Assembly: GCA_029005135.1 (NCBI GenBank)
Contig: JAQXFO010000076.1
Location: forward strand, 1-35,185
Reading direction: 5' to 3'
Origin: Lachnospiraceae bacterium
GTDB lineage: Bacteria; Bacillota; Clostridia; Lachnospirales; Lachnospiraceae
Length of the DNA stretch: 35,185 nucleotides
A program made the translations under genes and the position numbers. Under the pieces are notes generated by a model, which made no database searches, was not told where the DNA came from, and saw nothing but the letters and a program-made list of their open reading frames with translations. Positions 12,462 to 29,918 of this stretch are shown here, in pieces; the stretch's first letter is position 1, and the number at the start of each line of letters is the position of its first letter.

Positions 12462-12483
12462 TGACGCTGACTTTATCAGCTAA

Positions 12484-12555
12484 CTCCCCGAGTAGGGCTC
12501 GAACCTACAACCCCTCGGTTAACAGCCGAGTGCTCTACCATTGAGCTATCGAGGA
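12484..12555 (-). tRNA. tRNA-Asn (anticodon GTT)
   Basis: Acceptor stem TCCTCGA/TCGGGGA with a U1-A72 first pair and a T4-G69 wobble, anticodon stem CTCGG/CCGAG with loop CTGTTAA giving GTT, discriminator G, no encoded CCA. First gene of the five-tRNA unit. A U1-A72 pair is a known recognition feature for bacterial GatCAB on tRNA-Asn, which fits the transamidation genes in this window. Confidence 0.95.
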
Positions 12556-12578
12556 ATGTTCGCGCTTGCGACTTTGCT

Positions 12579-12607
12579 ATAATATCACAAGGCTGTAGGC
12601 TTTGCAA
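12579..12607 (-). promoter_or_regulatory. Promoter of the Asn-Glu-Met/Ile2-Asp-Leu tRNA operon
   Basis: TTGCAA (12602-12607), 17-bp spacer ending in an extended -10 TGA, then TATTAT (12579-12584), about 24 bp before tRNA-Asn. Confidence 0.7.
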
Positions 12608-12649
12608 GAACTTTTTTTGTTCTTTTCAGCCGTTCTGTTGAGCGGGTTA

Positions 12650-12723
<74 letters not shown>

Positions 12724-12729
12724 ATAGAG

Positions 12730-12819
12730 CGGAGAAGGAGGGATTTGAACCCTCGCGCCGCTATTAACGACCTGCACCCTTTCCAGGGGTGTCCCTTCGG
12801 CCAGCTTGGGTACTTCTCC
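12730..12819 (-). tRNA. tRNA-Ser (anticodon GGA)
   Basis: Acceptor stem GGAGAAG/CTTCTCC, anticodon stem CACCC/GGGTG with loop CTGGAAA giving GGA, long class II variable arm, discriminator G, no encoded CCA. Confidence 0.95.
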
Positions 12820-14988: not shown

Positions 14989-16482
14989 TTACTGGATGGT
15001 CAGACCGGTGTAGCCCATCAGGTCACAATCTACCGCCGCTGCGGCTTCGCGTCCCTCTCGAACGGCCCAGACCACCAGAGACTGCCCGCGGTGCATATCA
15101 CCGGCGGTGAAGACGCGGTCGCGGGAGGTCTTGTAGGCCCCCGGGGCTGTCTCCACGTTGCTGCGGGCGTTTACCCGGACCTCAAAGGCGTCCGTCACAT
15201 AGGCTTCACTGCCGAGGAAGCCGGCTGCGATCAGCAGGAGTTCGCAGGGCAGCGTCTGTTCACTGCCTTCGATGGGGGTCGGCACCCGGCGGCCGGTGAC
15301 GGGATCCTTCTGCCAGTCGAGGCGTACGGTGACCACCGCTTTGAGGCGTCCCTTCTTATCTTTCACAAATTCTTTGACCGTCGTCTCATAGATGCGGGGA
15401 TCATGACCAAAGACGGCAGCCGCCTCCTCCTGGCCGTAATCGGTCTTTTTCACCTTCGGCCACTCCGGCCACGGATTGTCCGCGGTGCGCCCGGCAGGCG
15501 GTTCGGGCATCATTTCCAGCTGCGTCACTGAGCGGCAGCCCTGACGGACACAGGTGCCGACACAGTCATTGCCGGTATCGCCGCCGCCGACAATGATGAC
15601 GTTCTTGTTTTTGGCATTGACGAAGTCTGCCGCACCGGCCTTTTCATCCAGGAGGTACTTCGTGCTGCGTGTCAGGAAGTCCACCGCAAAATAGATCCCG
15701 CCGGCATCACGGCCGGGGGCGTTGAGGTCCCGGGGTCTGCGGGAGCCACAGCACAGGAGGACACGGTCGTAGGTCTTCAGAAGCTCCGCTGCGGTGATAT
15801 CGACACCGACATTGATACCGGTGCGGAATTCCACACCCTCTTCCTTAAGAAGGGCGACACGGCGGTCGATAATGGGCTTTTCCAGTTTCATGTTGGGAAT
15901 GCCGTACATCAGAAGTCCGCCGACGCGGTCATCCCGCTCAAATACCGTGACCAGGTGACCGCGCTGGTTGAGCAGGGCCGCTGCCGCCAGGCCGGCGGGG
16001 CCGGAACCGACCACCGCCACCCGTTTGCCGGTCCTGACCGTGGGCGGATTGGCGGTGACAAGACCGTGTTCAAAGGCGTATTCGATGATGGCGTGTTCAT
16101 TCTCGCGGGTCGACACGGCATCGCCGTTAAGTCCGCAGGTACAGGCCTTTTCACAGAGTGCGGGGCAGACCCGGGAGGTAAATTCCGGGAAGCTGCTGGT
16201 CTTGGCCAGCCGCTCATAGGCCAGCTTCATGTTGCCGCGGCAGGCCAGATCGTTCCATTCCGGGATCAGGTTGTGGAGCGGGCAGCCCGAGGTCATCCCC
16301 ATCAGACTGCCGCCGTACTGGCAGAAGGGCACGCCGCAGTTCATGCAGCGGGCACTTTGCTGTCTCTGGAGTTCCGGCGCCAGCCAGGTGTGGAACTCAT
16401 GAAAATGATGTATTCTCTCAAGAGGTGCCTCCGCCGTGGATTCCCGGCGTTCGTAATCTAAGAAGCCTGTTGGTTTTCCCAT
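14989..16482 (-). CDS. gltD: Glutamate synthase, small (beta) subunit
   Basis: This subunit takes electrons from NADPH and passes them through FAD and two 4Fe-4S clusters to the large subunit. It has 497 residues, slightly longer than the Escherichia coli protein. The N-terminal cluster cysteines are C46, C49, C54 and C67 (CMNCGVPFC then CPLH), with C106, C110, C114 and C116 (CPALCEKACTC) for the second. The first dinucleotide fold is VVGSGPAGLAAA (158-169) and a second, VGGGDTGND, binds NADPH mid-protein. It starts 4 bp after gltB with a GGAGGG Shine-Dalgarno, so the two are cotranscribed. It closes the nitrogen block and is followed by a terminator. Confidence 0.96.
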   Translation of the reverse strand: MGKPTGFLDYERRESTAEAPLERIHHFHEFHTWLAPELQRQQSARCMNCGVPFCQYGGSLMGMTSGCPLHNLIPEWNDLACRGNMKLAYERLAKTSSFPEFTSRVCPALCEKACTCGLNGDAVSTRENEHAIIEYAFEHGLVTANPPTVRTGKRVAVVGSGPAGLAAAALLNQRGHLVTVFERDDRVGGLLMYGIPNMKLEKPIIDRRVALLKEEGVEFRTGINVGVDITAAELLKTYDRVLLCCGSRRPRDLNAPGRDAGGIYFAVDFLTRSTKYLLDEKAGAADFVNAKNKNVIIVGGGDTGNDCVGTCVRQGCRSVTQLEMMPEPPAGRTADNPWPEWPKVKKTDYGQEEAAAVFGHDPRIYETTVKEFVKDKKGRLKAVVTVRLDWQKDPVTGRRVPTPIEGSEQTLPCELLLIAAGFLGSEAYVTDAFEVRVNARSNVETAPGAYKTSRDRVFTAGDMHRGQSLVVWAVREGREAAAAVDCDLMGYTGLTIQ

Positions 16483-16486
16483 CTTG

Positions 16487-19400
16487 TCAGCCCTCCTTCT
16501 TCATCGCGTAGAAAGCTTCGATGCGGGCCTGTTCTTCGGAAAGGCCCCGCTCTTCCATCCGGCCGATGATTCTGAGCATCTTCTCATAATCATGGGGGAT
16601 GATCTTCTTGAACTTCGGCAGATAAGCGAAGAAATGCTCCAGGATCTCACGGCCCTTAGGTGAACCGGTGCGCCGGACATGTTCTTCGATCATGGCTTTC
16701 AGTTCAGCCACATCGTATTTATCGGTCAGCTCGTAAGAAGCGACCATACCCTTATTGAGACGGGTGTAGAGATCGCTCTTCTCGTCAAGCACATAGGCGA
16801 TGCCGCCGCTCATGCCGGCGGCAAAATTCTTGCCCGTCGGGCCCAGGATGGCCACACGGCCGCCGGTCATATACTCGCAGCCGTGATCGCCGACACCTTC
16901 GACGACGGCAAGGGCGCCGGAATTTCTGACGGCGAAACGTTCACCGGCCACACCGTTGATAAAGGCCTTGCCGCCGGTGGCGCCGTAGAGGGCCACGTTG
17001 CCCACGATGATGTTGTCCTCCGGTCGGAATGCCGAGGCTTTCGGCGGATACAGAACCAGTGTGCCGCCGGAGAGTCCCTTGCCGAAGTAATCGTTGGCAT
17101 CGCCTTCCAGGGACAGTGTCAGGCCTTTCGGGATAAAGGCCCCGAAACTCTGGCCGCCGGCACCTTCGGCCAGGACGGTGTACTGATCTTCCGCGGCCTC
17201 GCTGCCCAGCCGACGCGTGATCTCGGAACCGGTGATGGTGCCGAAGGCTCTGTCGGTATTGCTGACAGCCATGGTCACAGAAGCGCCCTTCCCGGCCTCC
17301 ATAGCCGGCCGGAAGACCTTCAGAAGCTGTGTCTCATCGGCGGTTCTGTCAAGGTGGAAGTCATAGACCTGATCCTTTGTGAAGCAGGACGGAATCTCTT
17401 TTTTGCCGGCATACGGATTGTCAAGAATCGGTGACAGATCGATGGCCTTCAGAGAGGCGGGCAGATCGGCGCGTTTTTCCAGAAGGTCGGTGCGGCCCAC
17501 CAGTTCATCCACGGTGCGGACACCAAGCCTGGCCATATGCTCGCGCAGATCCTCGGCGATAAAACGCATGAAGTTGATCACGTATTCCGGCTTGCCGCGG
17601 AAGCGTTTGCGCAGCTCCGGATTCTGGGTGGCGATGCCCATCGGACAGGTATCCAGGTTGCAGACACGCATCATCACGCAGCCCAGGGCTACCAGCGGCG
17701 CCGTCGCGAAGCCGAATTCCTCCGCGCCGAGCATAGCGGCGATGCAGACATCCCGGCCGGTCATCAGCTTGCCGTCCGTCTCCAGACGCACCTTCTGGCG
17801 CAGACCGTTGAGGATCAGGGTCTGATGCGTCTCGGAGAGACCCAGTTCCCAGGGCAGACCGGCATTGTGGATCGAATTGCGCGGGGCGGCACCGGTGCCG
17901 CCGTCATAACCGGAGATCAGAATGACCTCAGCGCCGGCCTTGGCCACACCCACGGCGACGGTACCGACGCCGGATTCGGCCACCAGTTTGACATTGATGC
18001 GCGCGCCGGTATTGGCATTTTTCAGATCGTAGATCAGCTCGGCCAGATCCTCTATCGAGTAGATATCATGGTGAGGAGGCGGTGAAATCAGTGCCACGCC
18101 GGGTGTGGAATGGCGGGTGGCCGCGACCCACGGATAAACCTTGCCGCCGGGCAGATGGCCGCCTTCACCGGGCTTAGCGCCCTGAGCCATTTTAATCTGG
18201 ATCTCCTTTGCGGAGGTCAGATAGCGGCTGGTGACACCGAAGCGTCCCGAGGCGACCTGCTTGATCGCCGAGCAGCGGTTCGGGCCGTCCTTGGGTATGA
18301 CCATACGGTCCTCGGCTTCACCGCCCTCACCGGTATTGGACTCACCGCCGATGGCGTTCATGGCTACGGCCAGGGCTTCGTGAGCCTCCTGCGACAATGA
18401 ACCGTAGCTCATCGCGCCGGTCTTAAAGCGTCTGACGATGCTGTCGACGCTCTCGACCTCGTCAAGAGGGATACCCTTTTCCGGGTATTTGATGGCCATC
18501 AGTCCCCGAAGGTTCATGGGGCCGAGTTCCTCGTTGATCTGACGGCAGTATTCTCTGAACAGACTGTAATCGCCGGTCTGGGTGGATTTCTGAAGAAGGT
18601 GGATCGTGGCCGGGTTGTAGAGATGTTCCTCTCCGCCGCTTCTCAGACCGTGATCGCCGAAGGAATCGATGGACAGATCCGAGCGCAGGCCCAGCTGGTC
18701 GAAGGCATTGTTGTGCCGTCTTTCAGTCCCTTTGGCAATATCCTCCAGGGAAATACCGCCGACGCGGCAGACGGTATTCGTGAAATAACGGTCGATCACA
18801 TCCTTATTGATGCCGATGGCTTCGAAGATCTGGGAGCCGCGGTAGGACTGGATCGTGGAAATGCCCATCTTGTCGGCGATCTTGACGATACCCTTGAGGA
18901 TCGCCTGATCATAATCGCTGACGGCGGCATAGTAATCCTTGTCCAGCAGACCGTCGTCGATCAGACCGCGAATGGTATCTTCGGCCAGATACGGGTTGAT
19001 GGCCGAGGCGCCGTAGCCCAGGAGGGTGGCGAAATGATGAACCTCGCAGGGCTCCGCGGATTCCAGGATCAGGGAAACCGAGGTGCGTTTCTTCATATTG
19101 ACCAGATGACGGTTCAGGGCCGATACCGCCAGCAGGGACGGGATCGCCGCGTGGTTTTCATCAGTGCCGCGGTCGGACAGGATCAGCATATTGGCACCGT
19201 CGCGGAAGGCCCGGTCGGCCTCCACGAAGAGACGGTCCAGTGCTTTTTCCAGGGATGTGCCGACATAATAGGTGATAGGCAGGATGCTGACACGGAAGCC
19301 CTCTGTGTGCATGTTTTTGATCTTCAGCAGGTCCGTACCGGTCAGGATCGGGTTGTGGATCTTCAGCACATTGCAGTTGGCCGGATCCTCCTCCAGCAGG

Positions 19401-21040
19401 TTGCCGTCGGTACCGCAGTAGACGGAGGTCGAGGTGACGATCTCCTCTCTCAGGGAATCGATGGGCGGATTAGTAACCTGGGCAAAGCGCTGTTTAAAAA
19501 AATGAAACAGCGGGTTGCAGTCCGGATTGAGCATCGGCAGTGCGGTGTCGACACCCATGGAGGCGGTCTTCTCGATGCCGTTGGCGGCCATCGGCAAAAT
19601 GCCGTCCATGATATTTTCGTAGCTGTAGCCGAAGGCCTTCTGCATCTTCTTCAGCTCATCGCCGGTATAGTTCGGGATACGGTTGTTCGGGATACGAAGA
19701 TCCTTCAGGTAGACCAGGTGATTATCCAGCCATTCGCCGTAGGGCTGGCGGGAGGCGTAGTCGTTTTTCAGTTCACTGTCATCGATGAGGCGGCCTTCCT
19801 TCAGGCTGACGAGCAGCATTTTGCCGGGTCTTAAGCGGTCTTTGAGCACCACCTCCTCCGGTTTGACCGGCAGGACACCTGTCTCGGAAGACAGGATGAG
19901 ACGGTCGTCGGCGGTGATGGTATAGCGCGACGGACGGAGGCCGTTTCTGTCAAGGACAGCGCCGACCACGTCACCGTCGCTGAAAATGATGGATGCCGGA
20001 CCGTCCCAGGGCTCCATCATGGTGGCGTAGTACTGATAGAATTCCCGGAGGGCCCGCGGCATATTCTTGTTGTTTTCCCAGGGTTCCGGAATGGTGATCA
20101 TCACGGCCATCGGCAGAGCCATGCCGCTCATGGTCAGGAATTCCAGGGTATTATCCAGCATGGCCGAATCGGAGCCTTTGGCGTTGACCACCGGCGTGAT
20201 GCGTGACATTTCCCCGTGAAGCTGATCGGAATCCATGTTTTCTTCACGGGCATACATGTTATCCACATTGCCGCGGATGGTATTGATTTCGCCGTTGTGT
20301 ACGATCAGGCGGTTCGGGTGGGCTCTCTCCCAGCTTGGGAAGGTATTCGTTGAGAAACGGGAATGAACCACGGCGATGGCCGATTCAAAAGCGGGACTCT
20401 GGAGATCGCTGTAGAAGGTCTTCAGCTGATCCACCAGGAACATGCCCTTATAGACAATGGTACGGCAGGACAGGGACAGCACGTAGGTGTTGTCGGAGGA
20501 CTGCTCGAAAACACGCCGGGCCACATAGAGGCGGCGGTCGAATTCCAGCCCCTTCTCACAGTGGGCGGGACGCTTCACAAAGCCCTGGACAATGGCGGGC
20601 ATGCAGGCCTTTGCCTTCTCCCCCAGGACCTCCGGATTGACCGGAACGTCACGCCAGCCCAGGAAGGTCATGCCTTCTTTTTCAATAACGACTTCAAACA
20701 TCTTCTTCGCACGGTTGCGAAGCAGCTCCTCCTGCGGAAAGAAGAACATACCGACGCCGTAATCCCTGACGCCGCCCAGATCCACACCCCTTTCGGCCAT
20801 GACCTGTGTCATAAAACGATGGGGGATCTGTGTCAGGATACCGACACCGTCACCGGTCTTGCCTTCGGCATCCTTACCCGCCCTGTGATCGAGATTCTCC
20901 ACGATCTTCAGCGCGTCTTCCACATTGCGGTGGTTCTGACGTCCCTTGATATCGACGCAGACACCGATGCCGCAGGCATCATGCTCAAATGACGGATCAT
21001 ACAGCGGCGGGATCTCCTGCGCTTTTCTGCTGTCAAACAT
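16487..21040 (-). CDS. gltB: Glutamate synthase, large (alpha) subunit
   Basis: It converts glutamine and 2-oxoglutarate into two glutamates, completing the GS-GOGAT cycle. The 1517-residue protein has the full domain set. A short propeptide precedes C22 (EHDACGIGV), the N-terminal nucleophile of the class II glutaminase domain (about 22-430). A central domain follows, then the FMN-binding synthase domain with SGYDGGTGAAPRNSI, then C1121, C1127 and C1132 for the 3Fe-4S cluster (CVMMRVCNLDTC), and a C-terminal GXGXG beta-helix domain. The ATG at 21040 has AGGAGGAG upstream. No promoter is visible in the 123 bp after gatB, and a strong terminator hairpin stands 35 bp before the start. Expression therefore probably depends on read-through or antitermination from the upstream genes. 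Confidence 0.97.
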   Translation of the reverse strand: MFDSRKAQEIPPLYDPSFEHDACGIGVCVDIKGRQNHRNVEDALKIVENLDHRAGKDAEGKTGDGVGILTQIPHRFMTQVMAERGVDLGGVRDYGVGMFFFPQEELLRNRAKKMFEVVIEKEGMTFLGWRDVPVNPEVLGEKAKACMPAIVQGFVKRPAHCEKGLEFDRRLYVARRVFEQSSDNTYVLSLSCRTIVYKGMFLVDQLKTFYSDLQSPAFESAIAVVHSRFSTNTFPSWERAHPNRLIVHNGEINTIRGNVDNMYAREENMDSDQLHGEMSRITPVVNAKGSDSAMLDNTLEFLTMSGMALPMAVMITIPEPWENNKNMPRALREFYQYYATMMEPWDGPASIIFSDGDVVGAVLDRNGLRPSRYTITADDRLILSSETGVLPVKPEEVVLKDRLRPGKMLLVSLKEGRLIDDSELKNDYASRQPYGEWLDNHLVYLKDLRIPNNRIPNYTGDELKKMQKAFGYSYENIMDGILPMAANGIEKTASMGVDTALPMLNPDCNPLFHFFKQRFAQVTNPPIDSLREEIVTSTSVYCGTDGNLLEEDPANCNVLKIHNPILTGTDLLKIKNMHTEGFRVSILPITYYVGTSLEKALDRLFVEADRAFRDGANMLILSDRGTDENHAAIPSLLAVSALNRHLVNMKKRTSVSLILESAEPCEVHHFATLLGYGASAINPYLAEDTIRGLIDDGLLDKDYYAAVSDYDQAILKGIVKIADKMGISTIQSYRGSQIFEAIGINKDVIDRYFTNTVCRVGGISLEDIAKGTERRHNNAFDQLGLRSDLSIDSFGDHGLRSGGEEHLYNPATIHLLQKSTQTGDYSLFREYCRQINEELGPMNLRGLMAIKYPEKGIPLDEVESVDSIVRRFKTGAMSYGSLSQEAHEALAVAMNAIGGESNTGEGGEAEDRMVIPKDGPNRCSAIKQVASGRFGVTSRYLTSAKEIQIKMAQGAKPGEGGHLPGGKVYPWVAATRHSTPGVALISPPPHHDIYSIEDLAELIYDLKNANTGARINVKLVAESGVGTVAVGVAKAGAEVILISGYDGGTGAAPRNSIHNAGLPWELGLSETHQTLILNGLRQKVRLETDGKLMTGRDVCIAAMLGAEEFGFATAPLVALGCVMMRVCNLDTCPMGIATQNPELRKRFRGKPEYVINFMRFIAEDLREHMARLGVRTVDELVGRTDLLEKRADLPASLKAIDLSPILDNPYAGKKEIPSCFTKDQVYDFHLDRTADETQLLKVFRPAMEAGKGASVTMAVSNTDRAFGTITGSEITRRLGSEAAEDQYTVLAEGAGGQSFGAFIPKGLTLSLEGDANDYFGKGLSGGTLVLYPPKASAFRPEDNIIVGNVALYGATGGKAFINGVAGERFAVRNSGALAVVEGVGDHGCEYMTGGRVAILGPTGKNFAAGMSGGIAYVLDEKSDLYTRLNKGMVASYELTDKYDVAELKAMIEEHVRRTGSPKGREILEHFFAYLPKFKKIIPHDYEKMLRIIGRMEERGLSEEQARIEAFYAMKKEG

Positions 21041-21075
21041 AGACTGTGTCTCCTCCTGCTTGTCTAAACCGTAAT

Positions 21076-21123
21076 AAAAAAGAAGTCGCCAAGAAAACGA
21101 ACTTCGCTTCCTTGCGACTTCTT
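21076..21123 (-). terminator. Terminator or attenuator between gatB and gltB
   Basis: A 10-bp AAGAAGTCGC/GCGACTTCTT stem (21114-21123 with 21080-21089) is extended by about ten inner pairs including G-U, and followed on the minus strand by TTTTTT. It stands 35 bp before the gltB start with no promoter between. It either ends the gat transcript or acts as a regulated leader terminator for gltBD. Confidence 0.85.
21104..21117 (-). promoter_or_regulatory. ANTAR-target-like hexaloop hairpin in the gltB leader
   Basis: On the minus strand UCGC-AAGGAA-GCGA forms a 4-bp stem with a six-base loop, A first and G fourth, the invariant loop positions of ANTAR-bound RNAs. It uses the 5' arm of the terminator at 21076-21123, so the two folds exclude each other. 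The second, upstream hairpin of the canonical two-hairpin motif was not found. Confidence 0.4.
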
Positions 21124-21163
21124 TGTAAAATACGTATCTGTTATGGTGTCAGACGGTGCTCCG

Positions 21164-22600
21164 TCAGCCCTCCAGGGTCCGGATGATCCGTTTGTTGACT
21201 TCAGCCGGGTCGGCCTGACCGCGGGTCTCCTTCATAACGGCGCCCACCAGGGCTCCCAGGGCCTTCTTCTTGCCGCTGCGATAATCCTCCACCGCCTTCG
21301 GATTGGCGGCAATGGCATTTTTTACGGCACTGTCGAGGGCACTGTCGTCACGAACGATGAGAAGACCGTTCGTTTCGGCATAGCTTTCGGGATCCACATC
21401 CGCCTCGAACATGGCAGCGAAGATCTGCTTAGCTGCACCGGAGCTGATGCGGCCGTCGGTACTCATACGGACCAGAGAGGCCAGATGTTCGGCCGAGAAG
21501 GGGATGCGATCGGCATCCAGACCCCTTTCCTTCTGAAGCTGACGCAGCTCCACGATGAGATAATTGGCCGTCTTCTTCGGCTCTCCCGACAGGCGGCCGG
21601 CTTCTTCGAAGAAATCCGCGGTCTGTCTGACCTCGGTGAGAATCGCGATGTCCTTCTCCGGCAATCCGTAGGTCTTCCGGAAACGTTCCGTCTTCTCTTC
21701 CCGGAATTCGGGGAGTCCGGCGGCGGCTTTCTCAAGCTGTGCCTCCGTGACATGAACAGGCGGCAGGTCCGGATCCGGGAAATACCGGTAATCCTTGGCA
21801 TCCTCCTTGGAACGCATGGCCCGGGAGGATTCCTTGTTCTCATCCCAGCGCCGCGTCTCCTGAGTCACACTCCGTCCCATTTCCAGAAGCTCGATCTGAC
21901 GCTCGGTCTCACCGGCAATGCAGTGGGCGATGGCCTTGAAAGAATTCAGGTTCTTCATCTCGGTACGCGTCCCGAAGGTCGTGCTGCCGACGGGCCTCAC
22001 GGAAATATTGATGTCGGCACGCATGGAGCCTTCCTGAAGCTTGCAGTCCGAAGCTCCCAGATAGCTGATCAGCATGCGCAGCTTCTCCAGATAGGCGATG
22101 ACTTCCTCCGCCGAGCGCATATCCGGCTCGGAGACGATCTCCAGCAGGGGTACACCGGAACGGTTGTAGTCCACCAGAGAGGTATTGGTCCATTCATCAT
22201 GGATCAGCTTGCCGGCATCCTCCTCCATATGGATCTCATGGATACGAATCGTCTTCGGTCCGGCTTCCGTCGTGATGGTCACATGACCGTCGGTGCATAT
22301 CGGCGCGTAGAGCTGGGATATCTGATAATTCTGAGGATTGTCGGGATAAAAATAGTTCTTGCGGTCAAAACGGCTGTCCCGGGTGATTTTGCAGTTGGTC
22401 GCCAGACCGACGGCGATCGCCGCATTCAGGACCTCGCGGTTGAGGACCGGCAGCGAACCGGGCATGCCGGTACAGACCGGGCAGGTATGGCTGTTGGGCT
22501 TTCCGCCAAAGGCGGTGGAGCAGGCACAGAAGATTTTGGTCTTCGTGGCCAGTTCCACGTGGGTCTCGAGGCCGATGACGGTTTCATAGCGCTGAGTCAT
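21164..22600 (-). CDS. gatB: Asp-tRNA(Asn)/Glu-tRNA(Gln) amidotransferase subunit B
   Basis: GatB binds the mischarged tRNA, activates the Asp or Glu side chain by phosphorylation and accepts ammonia from GatA. It has 478 residues, normal for the family. The N-terminal kinase-like cradle includes VIGLETHVEL and a zinc-binding set C25, C27, C40 and C43 (CAC...CPVC). The C-terminal helical and YqeY-like tail (GRISSGAAKQIF onwards) contacts tRNA. The start overlaps the gatA stop in ATGA. A strong terminator follows 40 bp after the stop. Its place in an operon with an archaeal-type AspRS points to Asn-tRNA formation as at least one of its jobs. Confidence 0.97.
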   Translation of the reverse strand: MTQRYETVIGLETHVELATKTKIFCACSTAFGGKPNSHTCPVCTGMPGSLPVLNREVLNAAIAVGLATNCKITRDSRFDRKNYFYPDNPQNYQISQLYAPICTDGHVTITTEAGPKTIRIHEIHMEEDAGKLIHDEWTNTSLVDYNRSGVPLLEIVSEPDMRSAEEVIAYLEKLRMLISYLGASDCKLQEGSMRADINISVRPVGSTTFGTRTEMKNLNSFKAIAHCIAGETERQIELLEMGRSVTQETRRWDENKESSRAMRSKEDAKDYRYFPDPDLPPVHVTEAQLEKAAAGLPEFREEKTERFRKTYGLPEKDIAILTEVRQTADFFEEAGRLSGEPKKTANYLIVELRQLQKERGLDADRIPFSAEHLASLVRMSTDGRISSGAAKQIFAAMFEADVDPESYAETNGLLIVRDDSALDSAVKNAIAANPKAVEDYRSGKKKALGALVGAVMKETRGQADPAEVNKRIIRTLEG

Positions 22601-24054
22601 CCGATAGCCTCCTTTCCTCTGACCGTCTGCTCATAGGTGTAAGCGGCACGAATCAGTGTGTGCTCCCGGAACGGGGCCGCCATCAGCTGAAGGCCGACGG
22701 GAAGTCCGCTGCGGTCAGCGCCGCAGGGAACGCAGATGCCCGGGATACCGGCCAGATTAGCCGGAACGGTATAAATATCCGACAGATACATCGTCATGGC
22801 ATCCTGCAGACTGGAGCCCAGAGAGGGCGCCGTTGTCGGCGAAGCCGGTCCGAGGATCAGGTCGTAATCGGCGAAAATCTCGTCAAAGGCCTGCCTGATG
22901 AGGGCTCTGACGCGCAGGGCCTTCAGATAATAGGCATCATAATAACCGGAGCTCAGAACAAAGCTGCCCAGCATGATGCGGCGTTTGACTTCGGGACCGA
23001 AGCCGCGGCTCCGGGTCCTCTTGTACATCGTGTGAAGATCCTCGGCATCCTCGGCCCGGAAGCCGTATTTGACACCGTCGTAACGCTCCAGGTTGGAACT
23101 GGCTTCGGCATCGGCGATGGTATAATAGCTCGCCACGGCATAATCCGTGTATTTCAGGCTGACGGTCTCCACCACAGCACCGGCTGCTCTGAAGACATCA
23201 GCGGCTTTGAGGACTTCCTGTCTGACATCGTCATTCAGACCGTCGCCCAGGTATTCTTCCGGAATCGCGATCTTAAGTCCCCGGCCGTCACAGATCAGGG
23301 CATCGGTATAGCGGCCGTCCTGTCTCTCGAGAGAGGTGGCATCCTTCACATCCCGGCCGGCGATCGCCTCCAGCATCGCAGCGGCATCCGCCACGTCCGC
23401 GGTGATAGGGCCGATCTGATCCAGAGAGGAGCCGTAGGCTACCAGACCGTAACGGGAGACAGTGCCATAGGTCGGCTTCAAGCCCACGACACCGCAATAG
23501 GAAGCCGGCTGGCGAATGGAGCCGCCGGTATCGCTGCCCAGGGCTGCCAGGGCTTCCCCGGCCGCCACAGCGGCAGCGGAACCGCCCGAAGAGCCCCCCG
23601 GCACATGGCCGGTGTTGACCGGATTCTTCGTGGGGCCGAAGGCTGAGGTCTCCGTGGTGGAGCCCATGGCGAATTCATCCATATTGGTCTTGCCGAGGAT
23701 CAGGGCGCCGGCCTTTTCCAGGCGGCTGACCGCTTCGGCGGTATAGGCTGGACGGAAGCCCTCCAGAATGCGGGACGCGCAGGTACAGGGCAGACCTTCA
23801 TAGCACAGGTTGTCCTTCACCGCCACCGGCACACCGGCCAGGGGGCCTGTGACAGCGCCGCTGCGAATGGCCTCGTCCAGCGCATCCGCTTCTTTTTCCA
23901 GGCTTTCCCGGTCCTTCAGGGCCAGATAAGCGTGGATCTCATTTTCCTTCTCATCGACAGCGGCAAGAACACCGGCCAGGGCCTCCCGTACCGTAATCTT
24001 GCCCTTCTTCACGGCGGCGGCTGTCTGAAGCGCCGTCATTTTTCTGATATCCAT
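22597..24054 (-). CDS. gatA: Asp-tRNA(Asn)/Glu-tRNA(Gln) amidotransferase subunit A
   Basis: GatA is the amidase-signature glutaminase that releases ammonia from glutamine and channels it to GatB. From the ATG at 24054 (AAGGAG Shine-Dalgarno) it has 485 residues. The Ser-cisSer-Lys triad is K80 (VAVKDNL), S155 in GGSSGGSAAA and the nucleophile S179 in GSDTGGSIRQPAS, at nearly the same positions as in the studied Gram-positive enzymes. An open frame extends to 24120 but would begin inside gatC without a Shine-Dalgarno, so it is rejected. It lies 10 bp after gatC and overlaps gatB by 4 bp. Glutamine for the reaction would come from the two glutamine synthetases encoded upstream in the same block. 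Confidence 0.97.
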   Translation of the reverse strand: MDIRKMTALQTAAAVKKGKITVREALAGVLAAVDEKENEIHAYLALKDRESLEKEADALDEAIRSGAVTGPLAGVPVAVKDNLCYEGLPCTCASRILEGFRPAYTAEAVSRLEKAGALILGKTNMDEFAMGSTTETSAFGPTKNPVNTGHVPGGSSGGSAAAVAAGEALAALGSDTGGSIRQPASYCGVVGLKPTYGTVSRYGLVAYGSSLDQIGPITADVADAAAMLEAIAGRDVKDATSLERQDGRYTDALICDGRGLKIAIPEEYLGDGLNDDVRQEVLKAADVFRAAGAVVETVSLKYTDYAVASYYTIADAEASSNLERYDGVKYGFRAEDAEDLHTMYKRTRSRGFGPEVKRRIMLGSFVLSSGYYDAYYLKALRVRALIRQAFDEIFADYDLILGPASPTTAPSLGSSLQDAMTMYLSDIYTVPANLAGIPGICVPCGADRSGLPVGLQLMAAPFREHTLIRAAYTYEQTVRGKEAIG

Positions 24055-24064
24055 AGAGCTCTCC

Positions 24065-24376
24065 TTATCGGTCGAAGGTCGGCGGCACCTGATACATGCC
24101 GTCCTTGGCCAACGGCGCATTTTTCAGGCTGTCTTCGGTACCGTCACGGTCGGAGGGATCGTCCTCACGGAACACATTGGGCACCGAATTCGGATGGGAC
24201 AGGGGCTCTACGCCGTCAGTATCCAGCTCGTTCATCTTCTCGATATAAGCCAGCATCCGCCCCAGATCACACCGGGCCGTCTCCCGCTCTTCGGCATCAA
24301 GCTCCAGCTTGGCCAGGATACTGACATTGTCGATGGTCTCGTCATCGATCTCTTTGATCACTCTATCGTCACTCAT
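24065..24376 (-). CDS. gatC: Asp-tRNA(Asn)/Glu-tRNA(Gln) amidotransferase subunit C
   Basis: This 103-residue helper wraps around the GatA-GatB interface and stabilises GatA. The N-terminal helical region ETIDNVSILAKLELDAEE and the downstream segment LDTDGVEPLSHP followed by VFREDD are typical GatC landmarks. The start overlaps the aspS stop in ATGA (24373-24376), making translational coupling of AspRS and the amidotransferase likely. Confidence 0.95.
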   Translation of the reverse strand: MSDDRVIKEIDDETIDNVSILAKLELDAEERETARCDLGRMLAYIEKMNELDTDGVEPLSHPNSVPNVFREDDPSDRDGTEDSLKNAPLAKDGMYQVPPTFDR

Positions 24377-25713
24377 GGTGTTAACCTCGTCATATCCCGC
24401 GGGAACAGCGTTGTCTCCCGGACATTATCTTCGCCGATCAGCTGCATGGTCAGCCGCTCCAGGCCGATGCCCAGGCCGCCGTGGGGCGGCATGCCGCATT
24501 CAAAAGCCAGCAGATAGGCTTCCATGCCTTCCGACGTCATGCCCTTCTTCTCGATCTTGGCCAGAAGCTCATCCTTCTGATGGATGCGCTGGCCGCCGGT
24601 GGTGATTTCCAGACCGCGGAAGAGACAGTCAAAACTCAGGGTAAAGGTCTCATCCGCCGGATCGTCCATAGCATAGAAGGGACGCTTTTTCGACGGATAA
24701 TGGGTGATGAAGACGAAATCGGCGTCGTATTCCTCTTTGAAATAACGGCCTATCAGAGCTTCCTCCTCCGGCTCAAGGTCGTAGGGATTGCGGATCGGAC
24801 GGTCGTATTTCTCCGACACCAGCTCTTTGGCCCTGTCAAACCGCACCGACGGGATGTTGTCCGTCCGCGGCAGTGACGTGATGTCGAGGGCCGCCAGCTC
24901 CGGTGCGTAATTCTCCTTAAGATTCGTCATGATGGCTTCAAGGACACCGGTCTCCATGGCCATAATGTCGTAGAAGCTGTCGATAAAGCCCATTTCGAAG
25001 TCCAGGGAGGTGTATTCGTTCAGGTGGCGCTTCGTGTTATGCTTCTCAGCGCGGAAAACCGGACCTATCTCATAGACGCGCTCGAAAACGCCCACCATCA
25101 TCTGCTTGTAGAACTGCGGGCTCTGGGCCAGCACAGCCGGATGATGGAAATAATCCAGCTTGAAGATATTGGCGCCGCCTTCAGCACTTCTGGCCGAGAG
25201 CTTCGGGGTGTGGATCTCGGTAAAATGCTGCGCCGTCAGGTAATTCCGGAAGCCCTCGCAGATACCCATCTGGATGCGGAACTTGGCCCGCTCGCGCAGG
25301 TTGCGGAGCGTCACGGGACGCAGATCCAGATTTTTCTCCAGAGTAACATTCATGCGCTTCTTGCCGATGGCCACCGGCAGGGTTCTGTCGGCATGGGACA
25401 GTACTCGAAGGCCGGAAAGACGGATCTCACAGCCGCCCGGTGCTTTCTCATTGGCCTGCAGGACACCGGTCACTTCCAGGGCCGAGGCCATCACCGGCAC
25501 GTCGATGCCGTCTTCTTCCGTCAGCACGCACTGCAGGAGACCGTCGCGCTTTCTCAGGATCACAAAGGTCACTTTACCCATTTCACGGACAGCATGCAGA
25601 GTCCCCCGGGTGGTCACGATCTGACCGATCATGCCGGAGCAGGCAAGGTCTGCCACAGAGGGATTATTCATGAAATCACCGCCATAACCGTTTATTTTGA
25701 TGATATCTTCCAT
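24373..25713 (-). CDS. aspS: Archaeal/eukaryal-type aspartyl-tRNA synthetase, probably non-discriminating
   Basis: The enzyme charges tRNA-Asp and, as inferred here, tRNA-Asn with aspartate; GatCAB then amidates the latter to Asn-tRNA. It has 446 residues, far shorter than the usual bacterial AspRS (about 590), and lacks the bacterial GAD insertion, so it belongs to the archaeal-type AspS2 group. An OB-fold anticodon-binding domain spans about 25-110. The class II catalytic core contains LAQSPQFYKQMM (195-206), motif 2 VFRAEKHNTKRHLNEYTSLDFEM (219-241) and motif 3 GGLGIGLERLTMQL near the C terminus, ending RLTP. The start has AGGAGG 7 bp upstream, 41 bp after the ANTAR gene. Overlap with gatC supports a role in tRNA-dependent asparagine formation. 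Confidence 0.93.
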   Translation of the reverse strand: MEDIIKINGYGGDFMNNPSVADLACSGMIGQIVTTRGTLHAVREMGKVTFVILRKRDGLLQCVLTEEDGIDVPVMASALEVTGVLQANEKAPGGCEIRLSGLRVLSHADRTLPVAIGKKRMNVTLEKNLDLRPVTLRNLRERAKFRIQMGICEGFRNYLTAQHFTEIHTPKLSARSAEGGANIFKLDYFHHPAVLAQSPQFYKQMMVGVFERVYEIGPVFRAEKHNTKRHLNEYTSLDFEMGFIDSFYDIMAMETGVLEAIMTNLKENYAPELAALDITSLPRTDNIPSVRFDRAKELVSEKYDRPIRNPYDLEPEEEALIGRYFKEEYDADFVFITHYPSKKRPFYAMDDPADETFTLSFDCLFRGLEITTGGQRIHQKDELLAKIEKKGMTSEGMEAYLLAFECGMPPHGGLGIGLERLTMQLIGEDNVRETTLFPRDMTRLTP

Positions 25714-25734
25714 AATAGTCCCTCCTCTTTCTCT

Positions 25735-25756
25735 GCCGGTCTCGCCGGCGTTTTTT
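25735..25756 (+). terminator. Plus-strand terminator-like hairpin between the ANTAR gene and aspS
   Basis: GCCGG-TCTCG-CCGGC followed by G and TTTTTT reads as a compact rho-independent terminator on the plus strand, opposite to every gene here. It could stop antisense transcription, or the hairpin may only shape the aspS leader on the minus strand, where it lies just upstream of the Shine-Dalgarno. Confidence 0.45.
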
Positions 25757-26300
25757 ATTTGAACAGGTCCAGAACCATCTGGGCCGTTTCGACAAAATCG
25801 GTACCCGTATCCATGGCGCTTTTCTGAATATAGCGGTGGGCCTCCGGCTCCGTCATATTGTTGCGCGCCATCAGAAGCGCTTTCGCTTCATTAATAATAG
25901 CGATCTCTTCTCCGGTACGGTTGAGCTTCTTATTTTTGCGTTTGCGGATATCGGCCTCCACGGTTCTCTGAAGCATCGAGACCGTGTCGATCAGGGCTTT
26001 CACCCGTGTCGGCATCGCCAGGCAGACGATACCGTTGTCCTTCAGATCGGGAAGGACGGATTCTCTGGCCATCAGGAGCATCTGAAAGCCCGGCGGCAGA
26101 GACTCGTGCAGCTCGGTATAGTACATATCCGCCAGCTGATAGCCGCATATGACAATACCGTTTTTCAGATTATCGATCTGTGACACAGCCTGAATTCCGG
26201 CTCTGCAGACGGCGGTCACCGAAAAACCGTTGCGCGCCAGAATCGCGCGGATATTTTTCGCATCTTCGATTTTCCGGAAGACCACAATAATATTCGTCAC
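25755..26300 (-). CDS. ANTAR-domain RNA-binding antiterminator with degenerate receiver
   Basis: This is a 181-residue regulator. Residues 1 to about 112 have a response-regulator-like alpha/beta fold, but the acidic pair is replaced (VVFRKIED) and the strand that should end in the phosphoacceptor Asp reads IVICGYQLADM. Phosphorylation in the usual way is therefore unlikely, as in AmiR. A helical linker (about 105-130) suits dimerisation. Residues about 130-178 form the three-helix ANTAR domain, with INEAKALLMARNNMTEPEAHRYIQ and a final AQMVLDLF. ANTAR proteins bind paired RNA hairpins and prevent terminator formation, often for nitrogen genes. It starts at GTG 26300 (CGGAGA upstream), 15 bp after glnA, inside the nitrogen block it may regulate. 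Confidence 0.9.
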   Translation of the reverse strand: MTNIIVVFRKIEDAKNIRAILARNGFSVTAVCRAGIQAVSQIDNLKNGIVICGYQLADMYYTELHESLPPGFQMLLMARESVLPDLKDNGIVCLAMPTRVKALIDTVSMLQRTVEADIRKRKNKKLNRTGEEIAIINEAKALLMARNNMTEPEAHRYIQKSAMDTGTDFVETAQMVLDLFK

Positions 26301-26315
26301 AGAAGTTCTCCGTCA

Positions 26316-27650
26316 TTACAGGCGATACAGGTCGTGATCGATCTCCCACTGGCTGATGTAGGTGGAATAATCGTTCCATTCCTTCTTCTTGGCTTCGACG
26401 TATTTTTCGGACACATGGGCGCCAAGGACTTTCTGAAGGAATTTGTCTCTTTCGAAGGCCTTCAGGGCCTCATTCAGATTCTCCGGCAGAGAGCTGATGC
26501 CCTGCTTGGCTTTCTCGGCATCCGACATCAGATTCAGATTGCCGGAGATCGGTGCCGGCGGATTGATCTTGCTGCGGATACCATCAAGGCCGGCCCGCAG
26601 GCAAAGTGCCAGGGCCAGATACGGATTGGCGGCACCATCCGGTGATCTCAGCTCGATACGGCGGTCCTTGCTGTCGGCCGCGTAGGGAATACGGATCAGC
26701 GGGCTTCTGTTGCCGGCGCCCCAGGCCTTGAAGGACGGAGCCTCGTAACCGGGGATCAAACGCTTATAGGAATTGACCAGAGGATTCAGAACGGCGCACA
26801 TGCCGTCGATATGCTTGATCAGGCCGCCGACAAACCAGTAGGCTTCCTCAGACAGTCCCATCGGATCAGTGGGATCATCGAAAATATTGCGGCCGTCACG
26901 GTGCAGTGACATATTGATATGCATGGAAGAACCGTCGACACCGGCCAGCGGTTTCGGCATAAAGGTGGCGTGAAGGCCGTGCTGACGGGCAATGGTCTTG
27001 ACGGCCAGCTTGAAGGTCATGATGTTATCGGCCGTCCTCAGTGTCTCGTCATACTGGAAATCGATCTCATGCTGGGACGGCGCCCCCTCATGATGCGAGG
27101 ACTCCACGACAAAGCCCATATCCTCCAGGGTCAGGACCATGTCGCGGCGGGCATTTTCGCCGAAATCCACCGGGCCCAGATCAAAATACCCGGCCATCTC
27201 GCGGGTCTTCGTCGTCGGCACACCGGCATCATCAGTCTGGAACAGGAAGAATTCGCATTCAGGTCCCACCTTCATGGTATAGCCCATGCGGGCAGCCTCC
27301 TCCACGGCCTTCTCCAGCACATAACGGGAATCACCTTCAAAAGGCGTCCCGTCCCCTTTGCAGACGTTGCAAATGAGACGGGCCACCTTTCCCTGCTGAG
27401 GACGCCACGGGAAGATGGTAAAGGTATCGAGATCCGGTTTTAAGAACATATCGGACTCTTCGATCTTGACCAGGCCTTCGATAGAGGAACCGTCGAACAT
27501 GATCCTGCCGTCCAGTGCTCTTTCGAGCTGACTGGCTGTCACAGCCACATTCTTGAGAGTTCCGAAAATATCGGTGAACTGAAGCCGGATAAAAGCTACA
27601 TCTTCATCTTCGACCAGGCGAATGATATCTTCTTTCGTGTAAGACGCCAT
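26316..27650 (-). CDS. glnA: Glutamine synthetase type I
   Basis: It makes glutamine from glutamate, ammonium and ATP. It has 444 residues from the ATG at 27650 (AGGAG Shine-Dalgarno), the length of the Bacillota GSI-alpha form; an in-frame ATG nine codons upstream has no Shine-Dalgarno. The N-terminal beta-grasp contains RLQFTDIFGTLKNV and FDGSSIEG (52-59). The catalytic barrel contains GPECEFFLF, HHEGAPSQHEID, the KPLAGVDGSSMHINMSL segment and NRSPLIRIP. GSI-alpha enzymes are controlled by feedback and protein partners rather than by adenylylation. It follows glnN by 41 bp with no promoter between, so it belongs to the same transcript. Confidence 0.96.
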   Translation of the reverse strand: MASYTKEDIIRLVEDEDVAFIRLQFTDIFGTLKNVAVTASQLERALDGRIMFDGSSIEGLVKIEESDMFLKPDLDTFTIFPWRPQQGKVARLICNVCKGDGTPFEGDSRYVLEKAVEEAARMGYTMKVGPECEFFLFQTDDAGVPTTKTREMAGYFDLGPVDFGENARRDMVLTLEDMGFVVESSHHEGAPSQHEIDFQYDETLRTADNIMTFKLAVKTIARQHGLHATFMPKPLAGVDGSSMHINMSLHRDGRNIFDDPTDPMGLSEEAYWFVGGLIKHIDGMCAVLNPLVNSYKRLIPGYEAPSFKAWGAGNRSPLIRIPYAADSKDRRIELRSPDGAANPYLALALCLRAGLDGIRSKINPPAPISGNLNLMSDAEKAKQGISSLPENLNEALKAFERDKFLQKVLGAHVSEKYVEAKKKEWNDYSTYISQWEIDHDLYRL

Positions 27651-27691
27651 TGTTTTACTCCTCAGCACAATATTCAAATGATTTGTTCGGA

Positions 27692-29809
27692 TCAGACCTC
27701 AAACATCAGATCGGAATAGGACGGCATCGGCCAGACAGACTTGTCGACGATGCTTTCGGCTTTGTCGATCGGTTTTCTCAGGGCTTCCATGGCCGGGATG
27801 ACCGTATCGCGGTAGGCCACGGCCTGTTCACGGCCTTCGGCTTTGGCATGGGCCTCCGCCGTGACATCGCGGAGAACACCCAGGGCACCGTAGGCCTCCT
27901 TCAGATAGCCGTTCAGTTCGGTAAGGACCGCCTCCTGAACCTCGGCGCCGGCGCCGATGCTCTTGAGGGCGCCGATATCGGAAGCCAGCTTGCCTGCGTA
28001 GCCCATAATGGCCGGGATCAGTTCTTTGGAGGCCATCTGTTCCATGGTCATGGCTTCAATGTTGATCGCCTTGCTGTAGGCTTCGTATTTGACTTCCACA
28101 CGAGCTTCCAGCTCAACATCTGTAAAGATCTTCTGTTCGCTGAAAAGCTTCTTAGCTTTGTCGGTGACCAGAGCCGGGATCGCATCCACCATAGACGGGA
28201 TATTCGGCAAGCCGCGTTTCTGCGCTTCTTCAACCCAGGCATCGGAGTAGCCGTTGCCGTTGAAGACGATTCTCTGGTGCTCTGTCATATATTCGCGGAT
28301 CAGGCTGCGGACGGCACTCGGGAAATCATCGGCCGCCTCCAGTCTGTCACAGGCTTCTCTGAAAGCCTCGGCAGTGATGGCATTAAGCACCGTATTCGGA
28401 CCGGCAACGGAATCGCGGGAACCGACCATACGGAATTCAAACTTGTTGCCGGTGAAGGCAAAGGGAGAGGTTCTGTTGCGGTCCGTGGCATCCTTGCTGA
28501 TATCGGACAGAGAACCGACGCCGGTCTCCAGGCGGCTGCCCTCCAGAGAGCTGCTGGCGAAGCCGTTTTCGATGATCTGATTCATCAGATCCTCGATCTG
28601 AGCACCCAGGAAGATGGAAATGATCGCCGGCGGGGCTTCGTTGGCACCCAGACGATGATCGTTGCCCACATCGGAGGCCGATTCGCGCAGCAGGTCAGCG
28701 TGGACATCGACGGCCTTGAGGACACAGGCCAGAACCAGCAGGAACTGCAGGTTCTCATGGGGTGTACTGCCCGGATCCATCAGATTGATGCCGTCATCGG
28801 TGACCAGGGACCAGTTGTTGTGCTTGCCGGAGCCGTTGACGCCGTCAAAGGGCTTCTCATGCAGCAGACAGCGCAGGCCGTGGCGGGTGGCCACTCTCTT
28901 CAGAGTCTGCATCACGATCTGGTTATGATCGACAGCGAGATTGGCTTCTTCATAGATGCAGGCCAGTTCATGCTGGGCCGGGGCTACTTCGTTATGCTGT
29001 GTCTTGGCCGGAACACCCAGCTTCCACAGTTCCTCATTAACCTCCTTCATAAACGGGGCAATACGGGAACGGATGGTGCCGAAGTAATGGTCGTCCATTT
29101 CCTGACCCTTCGGCGGCATGGCACCGAAAAGGGTACGGCCGGTGAAAACCAGATCCTGTCTCTTCAGATATTTCTTACGGTCAATAATGAAGTATTCCTG
29201 TTCGGCACCAACAGAGGGCTTCACGCGTGTTGACGTGGTGTTGCCAAACAGCTTCAGCAGGCGCAGTGCCTGTGTATTCAGCGCTTCCATGGAACGCAGC
29301 AGCGGTGTTTTCTGATCCAGAGCTTCACCGGTATAAGAGCAGAAAGCTGTCGGGATCACCAGAATTGCGCCGCTCTCATCATGACGGACAAAAGCCGGGG
29401 AGGTGCAGTCCCAGATCGTGTAGCCGCGGGCTTCGAAGGTGGCACGGATACCACCTGACGGGAAGGAGGAGGCATCCGGTTCACCCTTGATCAGTTCCTT
29501 GCCTGACAGATCCATCAGAACCTTGCCCTCCGTCGTCGGACAGGTGATGAAGGAATCGTGCTTCTCGGCTGTCGTGCCGGTCAGCGGCTGGAACCAGTGA
29601 GTATAATGGGTAGCGCCCTTCTCGATAGCCCAGGCCTTCATCTCATGGGCAATCAGATCGGCGGATTCTTTGTCCAGTTCCCCGCCTTCGCAACGAACCT
29701 TCTGAAGTTTCCTGAAGACTGCCTTGGTCAGTCTGGCCTTCATAACCGTGTCATTGAAAACATCAATACCATAGATATCGGTAATATCGGTTTTTACAGC
29801 GTCACTCAT
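27692..29809 (-). CDS. glnN: Glutamine synthetase type III
   Basis: A second, structurally distinct glutamine synthetase; GSIII enzymes are large dodecamers, found mainly in Bacteroidota, cyanobacteria and some Bacillota. The 705-residue length is typical. The N terminus has HYTHWFQPLTGTTAEKHDSF, followed by FPSGGIRATFEARGYT and the catalytic KTQHNEVAPAQHE, GSGKHNNWS and GNKFEFRMVGS regions characteristic of GSIII, with a helical C-terminal extension absent from GSI. The ATG at 29809 has TTAGGAGGG upstream. It is first in the nitrogen block, preceded by a promoter and a leader terminator, so its expression is probably controlled after initiation. Having both GSIII and GSI in one operon is unusual. 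Confidence 0.96.
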   Translation of the reverse strand: MSDAVKTDITDIYGIDVFNDTVMKARLTKAVFRKLQKVRCEGGELDKESADLIAHEMKAWAIEKGATHYTHWFQPLTGTTAEKHDSFITCPTTEGKVLMDLSGKELIKGEPDASSFPSGGIRATFEARGYTIWDCTSPAFVRHDESGAILVIPTAFCSYTGEALDQKTPLLRSMEALNTQALRLLKLFGNTTSTRVKPSVGAEQEYFIIDRKKYLKRQDLVFTGRTLFGAMPPKGQEMDDHYFGTIRSRIAPFMKEVNEELWKLGVPAKTQHNEVAPAQHELACIYEEANLAVDHNQIVMQTLKRVATRHGLRCLLHEKPFDGVNGSGKHNNWSLVTDDGINLMDPGSTPHENLQFLLVLACVLKAVDVHADLLRESASDVGNDHRLGANEAPPAIISIFLGAQIEDLMNQIIENGFASSSLEGSRLETGVGSLSDISKDATDRNRTSPFAFTGNKFEFRMVGSRDSVAGPNTVLNAITAEAFREACDRLEAADDFPSAVRSLIREYMTEHQRIVFNGNGYSDAWVEEAQKRGLPNIPSMVDAIPALVTDKAKKLFSEQKIFTDVELEARVEVKYEAYSKAINIEAMTMEQMASKELIPAIMGYAGKLASDIGALKSIGAGAEVQEAVLTELNGYLKEAYGALGVLRDVTAEAHAKAEGREQAVAYRDTVIPAMEALRKPIDKAESIVDKSVWPMPSYSDLMFEV

Positions 29810-29834
29810 TATCTTTCCCTCCTAACGAGTTATC

Positions 29835-29877
29835 AAAAAAAGAAAAGGCGTTCAAGAAAATAATCTCGAACGCCTTT
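29835..29877 (-). terminator. Leader terminator (attenuator) of glnN
   Basis: A 10-bp AAAGGCGTTC/GAACGCCTTT stem plus four inner pairs (14 bp in all, loop of six) is followed on the minus strand by TCTTTTTTT. It lies downstream of the glnN promoter and 25 bp before the start codon, so glnN transcripts must pass it. It might also catch transcripts from the HAD gene. Confidence 0.88.
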
Positions 29878-29882
29878 GTCCA
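29867..29882 (-). promoter_or_regulatory. ANTAR-target-like hexaloop hairpin in the glnN leader
   Basis: On the minus strand UGGAC-AAAGGC-GUUCG pairs over 5 bp (two G-U) around a six-base loop with A first and G fourth. It consumes the 5' arm of the leader terminator and so would act as an antiterminator. The expected start point is only 1-2 nt upstream, leaving no space for a first hairpin of the canonical pair. Confidence 0.4.
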
Positions 29883-29889
29883 TATCGGT

Positions 29890-29918
29890 ATCTTAGACTT
29901 CGGATTCTTTTCTGTCAA
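29890..29918 (-). promoter_or_regulatory. Promoter of the glnN operon
   Basis: TTGACA (29913-29918), 17-bp spacer, TAAGAT (29890-29895) on the minus strand, in an AT-rich stretch. The predicted start is near 29883, just before the leader terminator. The rest of the 29810-30003 gap shows no gene. Confidence 0.75.

Follow-up and report, generated by a model that had tools for sequence, protein, structure and literature searches.

The glutamine synthetase (GS) and glutamate synthase (GOGAT) genes of solvent-forming Clostridium lie together with an ANTAR regulator in a glnA-nitR-gltAB cluster, inside which we know of no aspS-gatCAB genes. Clostridium acetobutylicum is said to carry an archaeal-type aspartyl-tRNA synthetase (AspRS) gene followed by gatCAB, redundant with AsnRS, and this AspRS2-GatCAB operon is reportedly under T-box control. 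Here we describe, by computational analysis of sequence, a locus in a Lachnospiraceae bacterium (GCA_029005135.1) in which these elements meet. It lies in the window, the whole stretch of 35,185 nucleotides analysed (contig JAQXFO010000076.1, positions 1 to 35,185), where nine minus-strand genes follow one another in the order glnN-glnA-ANTAR-aspS-gatC-gatA-gatB-gltB-gltD. We read the block as one ANTAR-controlled nitrogen-assimilation locus that includes tRNA-dependent asparagine synthesis from glutamine (probability about 0.58). The kinds of system combined here, ANTAR antitermination, GS/GOGAT operons and tRNA-dependent asparagine synthesis, are known ones.

As in the glnA-nitR-gltAB cluster, GS, ANTAR and GOGAT genes stand together in the window. 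As is said of C. acetobutylicum, an archaeal-type AspRS gene precedes gatCAB, and the module is redundant with AsnRS; unlike there, no T-box is found, the module lies directly behind glnA-ANTAR, and GlnRS and AsnA are present. In PMC4206432, Deinococcus, Thermus and Bdellovibrio are described as using tRNA-dependent asparagine synthesis beside AsnRS and GlnRS. Compared with that account, the present genome shares the joint presence of AsnRS, GlnRS and GatCAB and a tRNA-Asn with U1-A72, and with Deinococcus and Thermus also an archaeal-type second AspRS, but it differs in possessing AsnA and in placing the module in a nitrogen operon.

ANTAR targets are reported to precede nitrogen genes, and the eut substrate of the ANTAR domain to consist of two hairpins, both needed (PMC3369931). 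In the EutV-RNA structure the dimer sits on a single hexaloop at any one time, and single-hexaloop targets are proposed as minimal (PMC8934654). The present locus resembles EutV/eut, NasR/nasF and AmiR/amiE in that the ANTAR gene lies in the locus and an A..G hexaloop hairpin overlaps the 5' arm of a terminator; it shares with eut the repetition of attenuators inside the locus, and with ANTAR systems generally the choice of nitrogen genes as targets. It differs from EutV-type systems in that most leaders with a good promoter show a single hairpin, 5-12 nt after the -10, instead of a pair, in a receiver-like half that by eye lacks a phospho-acceptor, and in targets that include asnB or aspS-gatCAB. 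Among open-licence papers judged by title, nothing was found on the ANTAR domain in Lachnospiraceae or on GatCAB in a nitrogen or GS operon.

We infer ANTAR binding, antitermination and the direction of control as follows. RNA polymerase would start before glnN and meet a terminator within ~50 nt; the ANTAR protein would bind and hold a hexaloop hairpin at the 5' end of the transcript and so block the terminator, allowing glnN-glnA-ANTAR-aspS-gatCAB to be made, and a second such switch would act before gltBD. Because the ANTAR gene lies in the operon that its protein would release, the protein would raise its own operon. The predicted specificity of AspRS2 would let it charge tRNA-Asn with aspartate, which GatCAB would amidate with glutamine from the two synthetases; asparagine would thus come from glutamine when ammonium, and hence the ammonia-dependent AsnA, is limiting. 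Elsewhere in the genus, many species have AsnB as the glutamine-dependent asparagine step beside these genes.

The gene block and its recurrence in relatives

Curated models run over the whole window give the following genes, and with the coordinates they bear out the order on one strand reported in an earlier note on this DNA:

27692..29809, minus strand, glnN, type III glutamine synthetase (GSIII; GSIII_N 250.8 bits)
26316..27650, minus strand, glnA, type I glutamine synthetase (TIGR00653, 527 bits)
25755..26300, minus strand, ANTAR protein (PF03861, 59.3 bits)
24373..25713, minus strand, aspS, archaeal-type, non-discriminating AspRS family (NF003483, 539 bits; TIGR00458, aspS_nondisc, 398 bits, above the cut-off of 368.4)
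24065..24376, minus strand, gatC (gatC equivalog)
22597..24054, minus strand, gatA (gatA equivalog)
21164..22600, minus strand, gatB (gatB equivalog; sole GatB match of the genome)
16487..21040, minus strand, gltB, glutamate synthase large subunit (NF008730, 1640 bits)
14989..16482, minus strand, gltD, glutamate synthase small subunit (TIGR01317, 647 bits)

The ATG of glnA is at 27650, and the listed open reading frame begins at a TTG further upstream. The earlier note described the junctions as ATGA overlaps or short gaps. Overlaps of this 4-base kind occur at two junctions only (aspS-gatC and gatA-gatB), and the remaining genes are separated by 41 bp (glnN-glnA, from the ATG), 15 bp (glnA-ANTAR), 41 bp (ANTAR-aspS), 10 bp (gatC-gatA), 123 bp (gatB-gltB) and 4 bp (gltB-gltD).

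The block recurs in relatives. The genus is represented by 42 genomes, with completeness from 64 to 100%, and three of them carry the archaeal-type AspRS (E < 1e-200; the next match, at 2.7e-34, resembles other class II synthetases), and GatB is confined to the same three, the other 39 showing none. Besides the window's genome, the carriers are two further species: G026, with glnN-glnA-ANTAR-aspS-gatCAB-gltB up to the end of the retrieved piece, and G019, with glnA-ANTAR-aspS-gatCAB-gltB-gltD beginning at the contig start. An equally near gltB (78%) belongs to G002, whose order is glnN-glnA-ANTAR-gltB-gltD; it lacks aspS-gatCAB and gave no GatB match. The permuted order gltB-gltD-glnA-ANTAR-aspS-gatC-gatA-gatB is seen in G310 and G214, which belong to a different genus of the family. 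A chance order in a single strain, the outcome that the earlier note had said a neighbourhood search might reveal, is ruled out by G026, G019, G310 and G214. In a tree of AspRS sequences (a quick method with long branches and SH-aLRT support only), the three carriers form one clade among Lachnospiraceae sequences with support of 98, beside one further locus with support of only 80, and the G310/G214 pair falls in a separate clade.

Asparagine enzymes and the T-box

The genome encodes AsnRS (618 bits), bacterial AspRS (754 bits), GlnRS (702 bits) and AsnA (350 bits), and a PF00733 search found no AsnB; the sole match, below the cut-off, is LarE. This inventory, which had been called for as a check, bears on the earlier claim that Asn-tRNA formation hangs on the module. 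With AsnRS, bacterial AspRS and GlnRS all present, neither Asn-tRNA nor Gln-tRNA charging should depend on GatCAB, and that claim is not upheld. The new ability conferred by the module would instead be the making of asparagine from glutamine on tRNA-Asn. What this route needs at the level of sequence is present, namely an AspRS of the non-discriminating family, GatCAB and a tRNA-Asn with U1-A72, which GatCAB requires for the tRNA-dependent asparagine route according to PMC4206432. The same survey lists AsnRS, GlnRS and GatCAB with AsnA only in 2 of 547 genera. The tRNA lies outside the operon:

12484..12555, minus strand, tRNA-Asn(GTT), the tRNA substrate, with U1-A72 and G73 (by eye)

ARAGORN places its ends one base wider per side than Rfam does. 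It belongs to seven consecutive minus-strand tRNA genes at 12099-12819 (Leu, Asp, Met, Glu, Asn, Ile and Ser from the low coordinate), ~2.2 kb beyond gltD. Among the other synthetases of the genome, LysRS (L003, contig C41 of G000) is 699 aa long and has a C-terminal stretch beyond its LysRS match, which ends at residue 535.

AsnA is found in 34 of the 42 genus genomes, including all three carriers. Canonical AsnB is found in 26 (matches of at least 78 bits, by our own reading; some match over the family cut-off exists in 37), which are 26 of the 39 non-carriers and none of the three carriers (Fisher's p = 0.049, uncorrected for kinship). In 17 of 20 asnB loci, often beside glnN, asnB lies within ~2.4 kb of glnN, glnA, gltB or amt, a proportion that is not an unbiased rate because the regions were picked for an asnB, gltB or R1 match (R1 being the leader model described below). 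The best reading is that, within a nitrogen regulon under ANTAR control, AspRS2-GatCAB replaces AsnB as the route from glutamine to asparagine.

The earlier note held that no T-box fits into the 41-bp gap before aspS, and this stands. Neither the core pattern nor a permissive Rfam search found a T-box, even a cryptic one, before aspS in the window, in G026 or in G019, and none was found in G310 and G214. The permissive search was used because the strict Rfam cut-off reported a T-box in only 1 of 7 loci; as a control it was run on three of those seven loci, all from Lachnospiraceae, and detected a T-box upstream of aspS in every one. For the remaining loci T-box status was read from the core pattern. 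Across the 80 best named loci among the matches listed, a looser core lies within 600 nt of aspS in 77, and the three without it offer 228 to 361 nt of sequence. Nitrogen-type control is the best reading of these data, since the carriers have no T-box, most relatives have its core, and the glnN leader has an ANTAR-type attenuator. If the T-box is ancestral in the AspRS tree, the separate clades indicate that the T-box-less state with ANTAR adjacent arose more than once. In one further locus (G324), ANTAR lies 1.7 kb upstream of aspS, and no T-box was found there either.

GatCAB and AspRS2 might alternatively be spare copies for charging tRNA, as Gln-tRNA or Asn-tRNA, with no particular tie to asparagine supply or nitrogen and clustered here by descent or convenience. 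In its favour, glnA-ANTAR stands upstream of aspS in 16 of the 80 best named loci listed (many contigs end earlier), with 1.9 to 6.2 kb from the ANTAR start to aspS and, by eye, dapF and/or dapL in between. Both are present in 12 of the 16, in the order glnA-ANTAR-dapF-dapL, and models confirm them in one of these loci (L014); 15 of the 16 have a strict T-box core no more than 400 nt from aspS. Since these loci share the upstream glnA-ANTAR, the closeness of ANTAR and aspS may be inherited. We nevertheless consider spare copies improbable: GlnRS, AsnRS and bacterial AspRS are all at hand, 39 of the 42 genus genomes live without the module, and the combination of an absent T-box with an adjacent ANTAR gene occurs in two separate AspRS clades.

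Predicted leader switches and the ANTAR protein

The glnN leader and the gatB-gltB gap each contain an intrinsic terminator that the earlier note had overlooked, and in both leaders a hexaloop hairpin overlaps the terminator:

29890..29918, minus strand, sigma-70-type promoter TTGACA-17-TAAGAT upstream of glnN, its -10 ending 7 nt before the leader hairpin
29867..29882, minus strand, P2-like hairpin TGGAC-AAAGGC-GTTCG of the glnN leader, hexaloop with A1/G4 (scanner score 18)
29844..29877, minus strand, predicted intrinsic terminator of the glnN leader, 14 bp stem then TCTTTTTTT (-21.6 kcal/mol, z -7.7)
21104..21117, minus strand, second P2-like hairpin TCGC-AAGGAA-GCGA, in the gatB-gltB gap (scanner score 10)
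21079..21124, minus strand, predicted intrinsic terminator of the gatB-gltB gap, followed by a T run (-26.3 kcal/mol, z -6.0)

In the glnN leader, the loop and 3' arm of the hairpin form the 5' arm of the terminator; because these are shared, the two structures are mutually exclusive. Run on 639 kb of Markov sequence, the strict scanner gives 15 background hits, one of which scores 14 or more. By scores of 18 and 10 against this background, the glnN switch holds by itself, and the gltB switch, whose score by itself is at background level, leans on the same feature in G026, G019 and G002.

To compare leaders, 43 were submitted, of which 5 gave no hairpin (including gltB of G026, read by eye) and 37 of the remaining 38 were usable, although some picks were plainly wrong (G011, G032, G005 and L017). 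A promoter with at least 10 of 12 consensus bases was seen in 27 of the 37, a count made with no chance control, and the hairpin follows the -10 by 5-12 nt in 26 of these and by 18 nt in one. Across 27 distinct leaders, position 4 of the hexaloop is G in all 27 and position 1 is A (22) or G (5). The four hairpin pairs are formed in 96.3% of 108 cells versus 80.9% in shuffled alignments, and the covariation score is 0.621 versus 0.276, with none of 500 shuffles matching either value; the best slid version of the alignment reaches 54.6% paired. Pairing is kept in glnA-type leaders too, where the 5' arm of the hairpin lies outside the terminator. When the loop core alone was sought, with the stem required only at the closing letters, the core together with a T run was present in 28 of the 38 leaders, and in 27 of these the second and third pairs form, the false match L087 being scored against pairing. 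These leaders look like the proposed single-hexaloop ANTAR targets.

The ANTAR protein has EutV and AmiR among its PDB relatives, and its N-terminal half is receiver-like with an IVICGY motif. By residue matches counted by hand, the ANTAR domain retains the lysine that EutV uses near G4, and the position of the EutV tyrosine is mostly histidine, as in AmiR.

The promoter upstream of glnN that the earlier note reported is present at 29918-29890. A consensus scan agrees that it is the only clear one in the window, but by eye G026 and G019 have a consensus-like promoter directly before gltB (10/12 matches in G019). Whether gltBD forms a separate unit with its own promoter and attenuator, making two operons of one regulon rather than a single transcript, is evenly poised. 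These two promoters and the attenuator-like sequence in the gatB-gltB gap of all three carriers speak for it; against it, the window has no good promoter near its gltB leader (best 6/12 consensus matches), so that read-through may be needed for gltBD there. The second attenuator and the gltB promoters of G026 and G019 also leave unproven the idea that glutamine supply and use rise and fall together. In G026, the glnN and gltB promoters (L120, near 6290 and 15250) are preceded by a near-palindrome, TTGTCTGAnnnTC.GA.AA (by eye), which G019 shares upstream of its gltB promoter (L122 reversed, near 6690); it may be a site for a DNA-binding regulator, and was not seen in the glnN leader of the window.

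Several observations count against ANTAR control of the block. In 30 aligned proteins the IVICGY-type motif comes, by eye, without a phosphorylatable Asp (compare Asp54 of EutV). By eye, no second hairpin (P1) is seen downstream of the predicted promoter, whereas the known substrate has two, and PMC8934654, the structure paper, maintains that preventing termination requires contact with the two hexaloops together. The 27 leader rows were hand-chosen, several having first been picked by a scanner requiring at least 3 pairs. Both-side changes occur in 3 of 4 hairpin pairs, which 148 of 500 shuffles also reach, and the covariation stems from the divergent glnA and gltB leaders. In a 15-leader subset, where the terminator stem is supported, the hairpin pairs in 100% of cells and covariation is not above shuffles (96/500 as high). 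The strict scanner detects the leader in only 7 of 20 genus loci, and also hits the window outside the block, at 7958 (minus strand, score 15) and 454 (plus strand). As for the T-box, 11 of the 29 order-level loci lack its core; family f17 accounts for 8 of these, and no ANTAR match was found near the 8 in the stretch of at most 1.5 kb upstream that was examined (two have little such sequence). The p-value for AsnB absence is only 0.049 before any kinship correction, canonical AsnB is also absent from 13 non-carriers, and in G019 two PF00733 matches of 50 bits (C176 and C326) exceed the family cut-off. The C176 match was rejected as AsnB, having no tblastn similarity to genus AsnB at 1e-6.

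The attenuators might also be real and governed by another RNA-binding protein or by transcription-translation conditions, with the ANTAR gene a mere neighbour. The missing P1 hairpin and phospho-acceptor fit this explanation, as does the fact that ANTAR binding is only predicted; a glnA-type match adjoins ANTAR in 30 of 30 loci, however, the loop G4 is invariant with A or G at position 1, and the hairpin-terminator overlap is that of the eut, nas and ami leaders. We hold such a governor to be unlikely, and ANTAR control to be the better reading. The earlier proposal that Asn-tRNA formation was moved to nitrogen control is partly supported: the absent T-box and the ANTAR-type attenuator agree with nitrogen-type control, dependence of Asn-tRNA on the module falls away, and the direction was right where the mechanism has been refined.

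Extent of the leader family

Covariance model R1 was built from 15 leaders of the glnA/glnN type only; a joint model with gltB-type leaders was dropped because the terminator registers differ. The glnN leader of the window, itself a training row, matches at 45.7 bits. In 46 sequence sources (834 kb), R1 has 23 matches with E <=2e-4, 15 of them training rows; 22 precede glnA or glnN, and one (L221) precedes a gltB-like gene diverging from glnN. Across the 42 genus genomes R1 finds 20 loci, of which 9 are training rows or near copies. Nine of the other 11 precede amt, two gltB-like genes, glnN, glnA, dapF, agcS, dapL and asnB; the two misfits lie before a gene without an NCBIfam match at 1e-40 (G028, C293) and where no fitting gene is nearby (G002, C420). 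R1 also lies 14-63 nt before the aligned asnB start in four genomes (G001, G024, G007 and G012), before glnN in seven (G011, G005, G018, G021, G004, G010 and G028) and before gltB in three (G012, G024 and G061), these 14 matches scoring 17 to 32 bits with E of 5e-5 to 0.18. In G023, two tandem R1 leaders (42.3 and 16.6 bits; L260:1987-2094) precede the ammonium transporter gene amt.

Several R1 matches extend the range of neighbours. In G004, G010 and G059, R1 precedes a stand-alone gltB-like gene of glutamine-amidotransferase type that diverges from glnN (L257:8677, L258 near 3742 and L221:8080). R1 leaders also stand before dapF in G006 (L240), where dapL follows by eye, before dapL in G034 (L242) and before the gene for an AGCS amino-acid carrier in G020 (L241), and lysine or wall precursors may on this account belong to the regulon. 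In the window's own genome, G000, contig C51 carries at 930-979 (L261; R1 27.2 bits) a leader-like hairpin, AAC-GAAGGC-GTT, together with a promoter and a pair of terminator-like hairpins. Downstream, no gene on that strand is evident; the next gene is convergent and encodes, by eye, a small heat-shock-type protein. L261 is perhaps a small RNA to which the ANTAR protein could bind, the role ascribed to EutX.

Tentatively, and at somewhat less than even odds, single-hexaloop ANTAR attenuators at the 5' end may run the nitrogen regulon of Lachnospiraceae, with asparagine synthesis as an exchangeable slot filled by asnB in many species and by aspS2-gatCAB in some, the latter having swapped T-box for ANTAR at least twice. 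The leaders would supply many natural candidates for the single-hexaloop ANTAR target sought by structural work (PMC8934654). A specialist would be surprised to see aspS2-gatCAB take the place of asnB within a single regulon, and the T-box lost in more than one lineage. If the reading is true, AsnB would have been replaced by an unrelated tRNA-dependent route within the same regulon, and a tRNA-linked pathway would have shifted from tRNA-charging control to nitrogen control.

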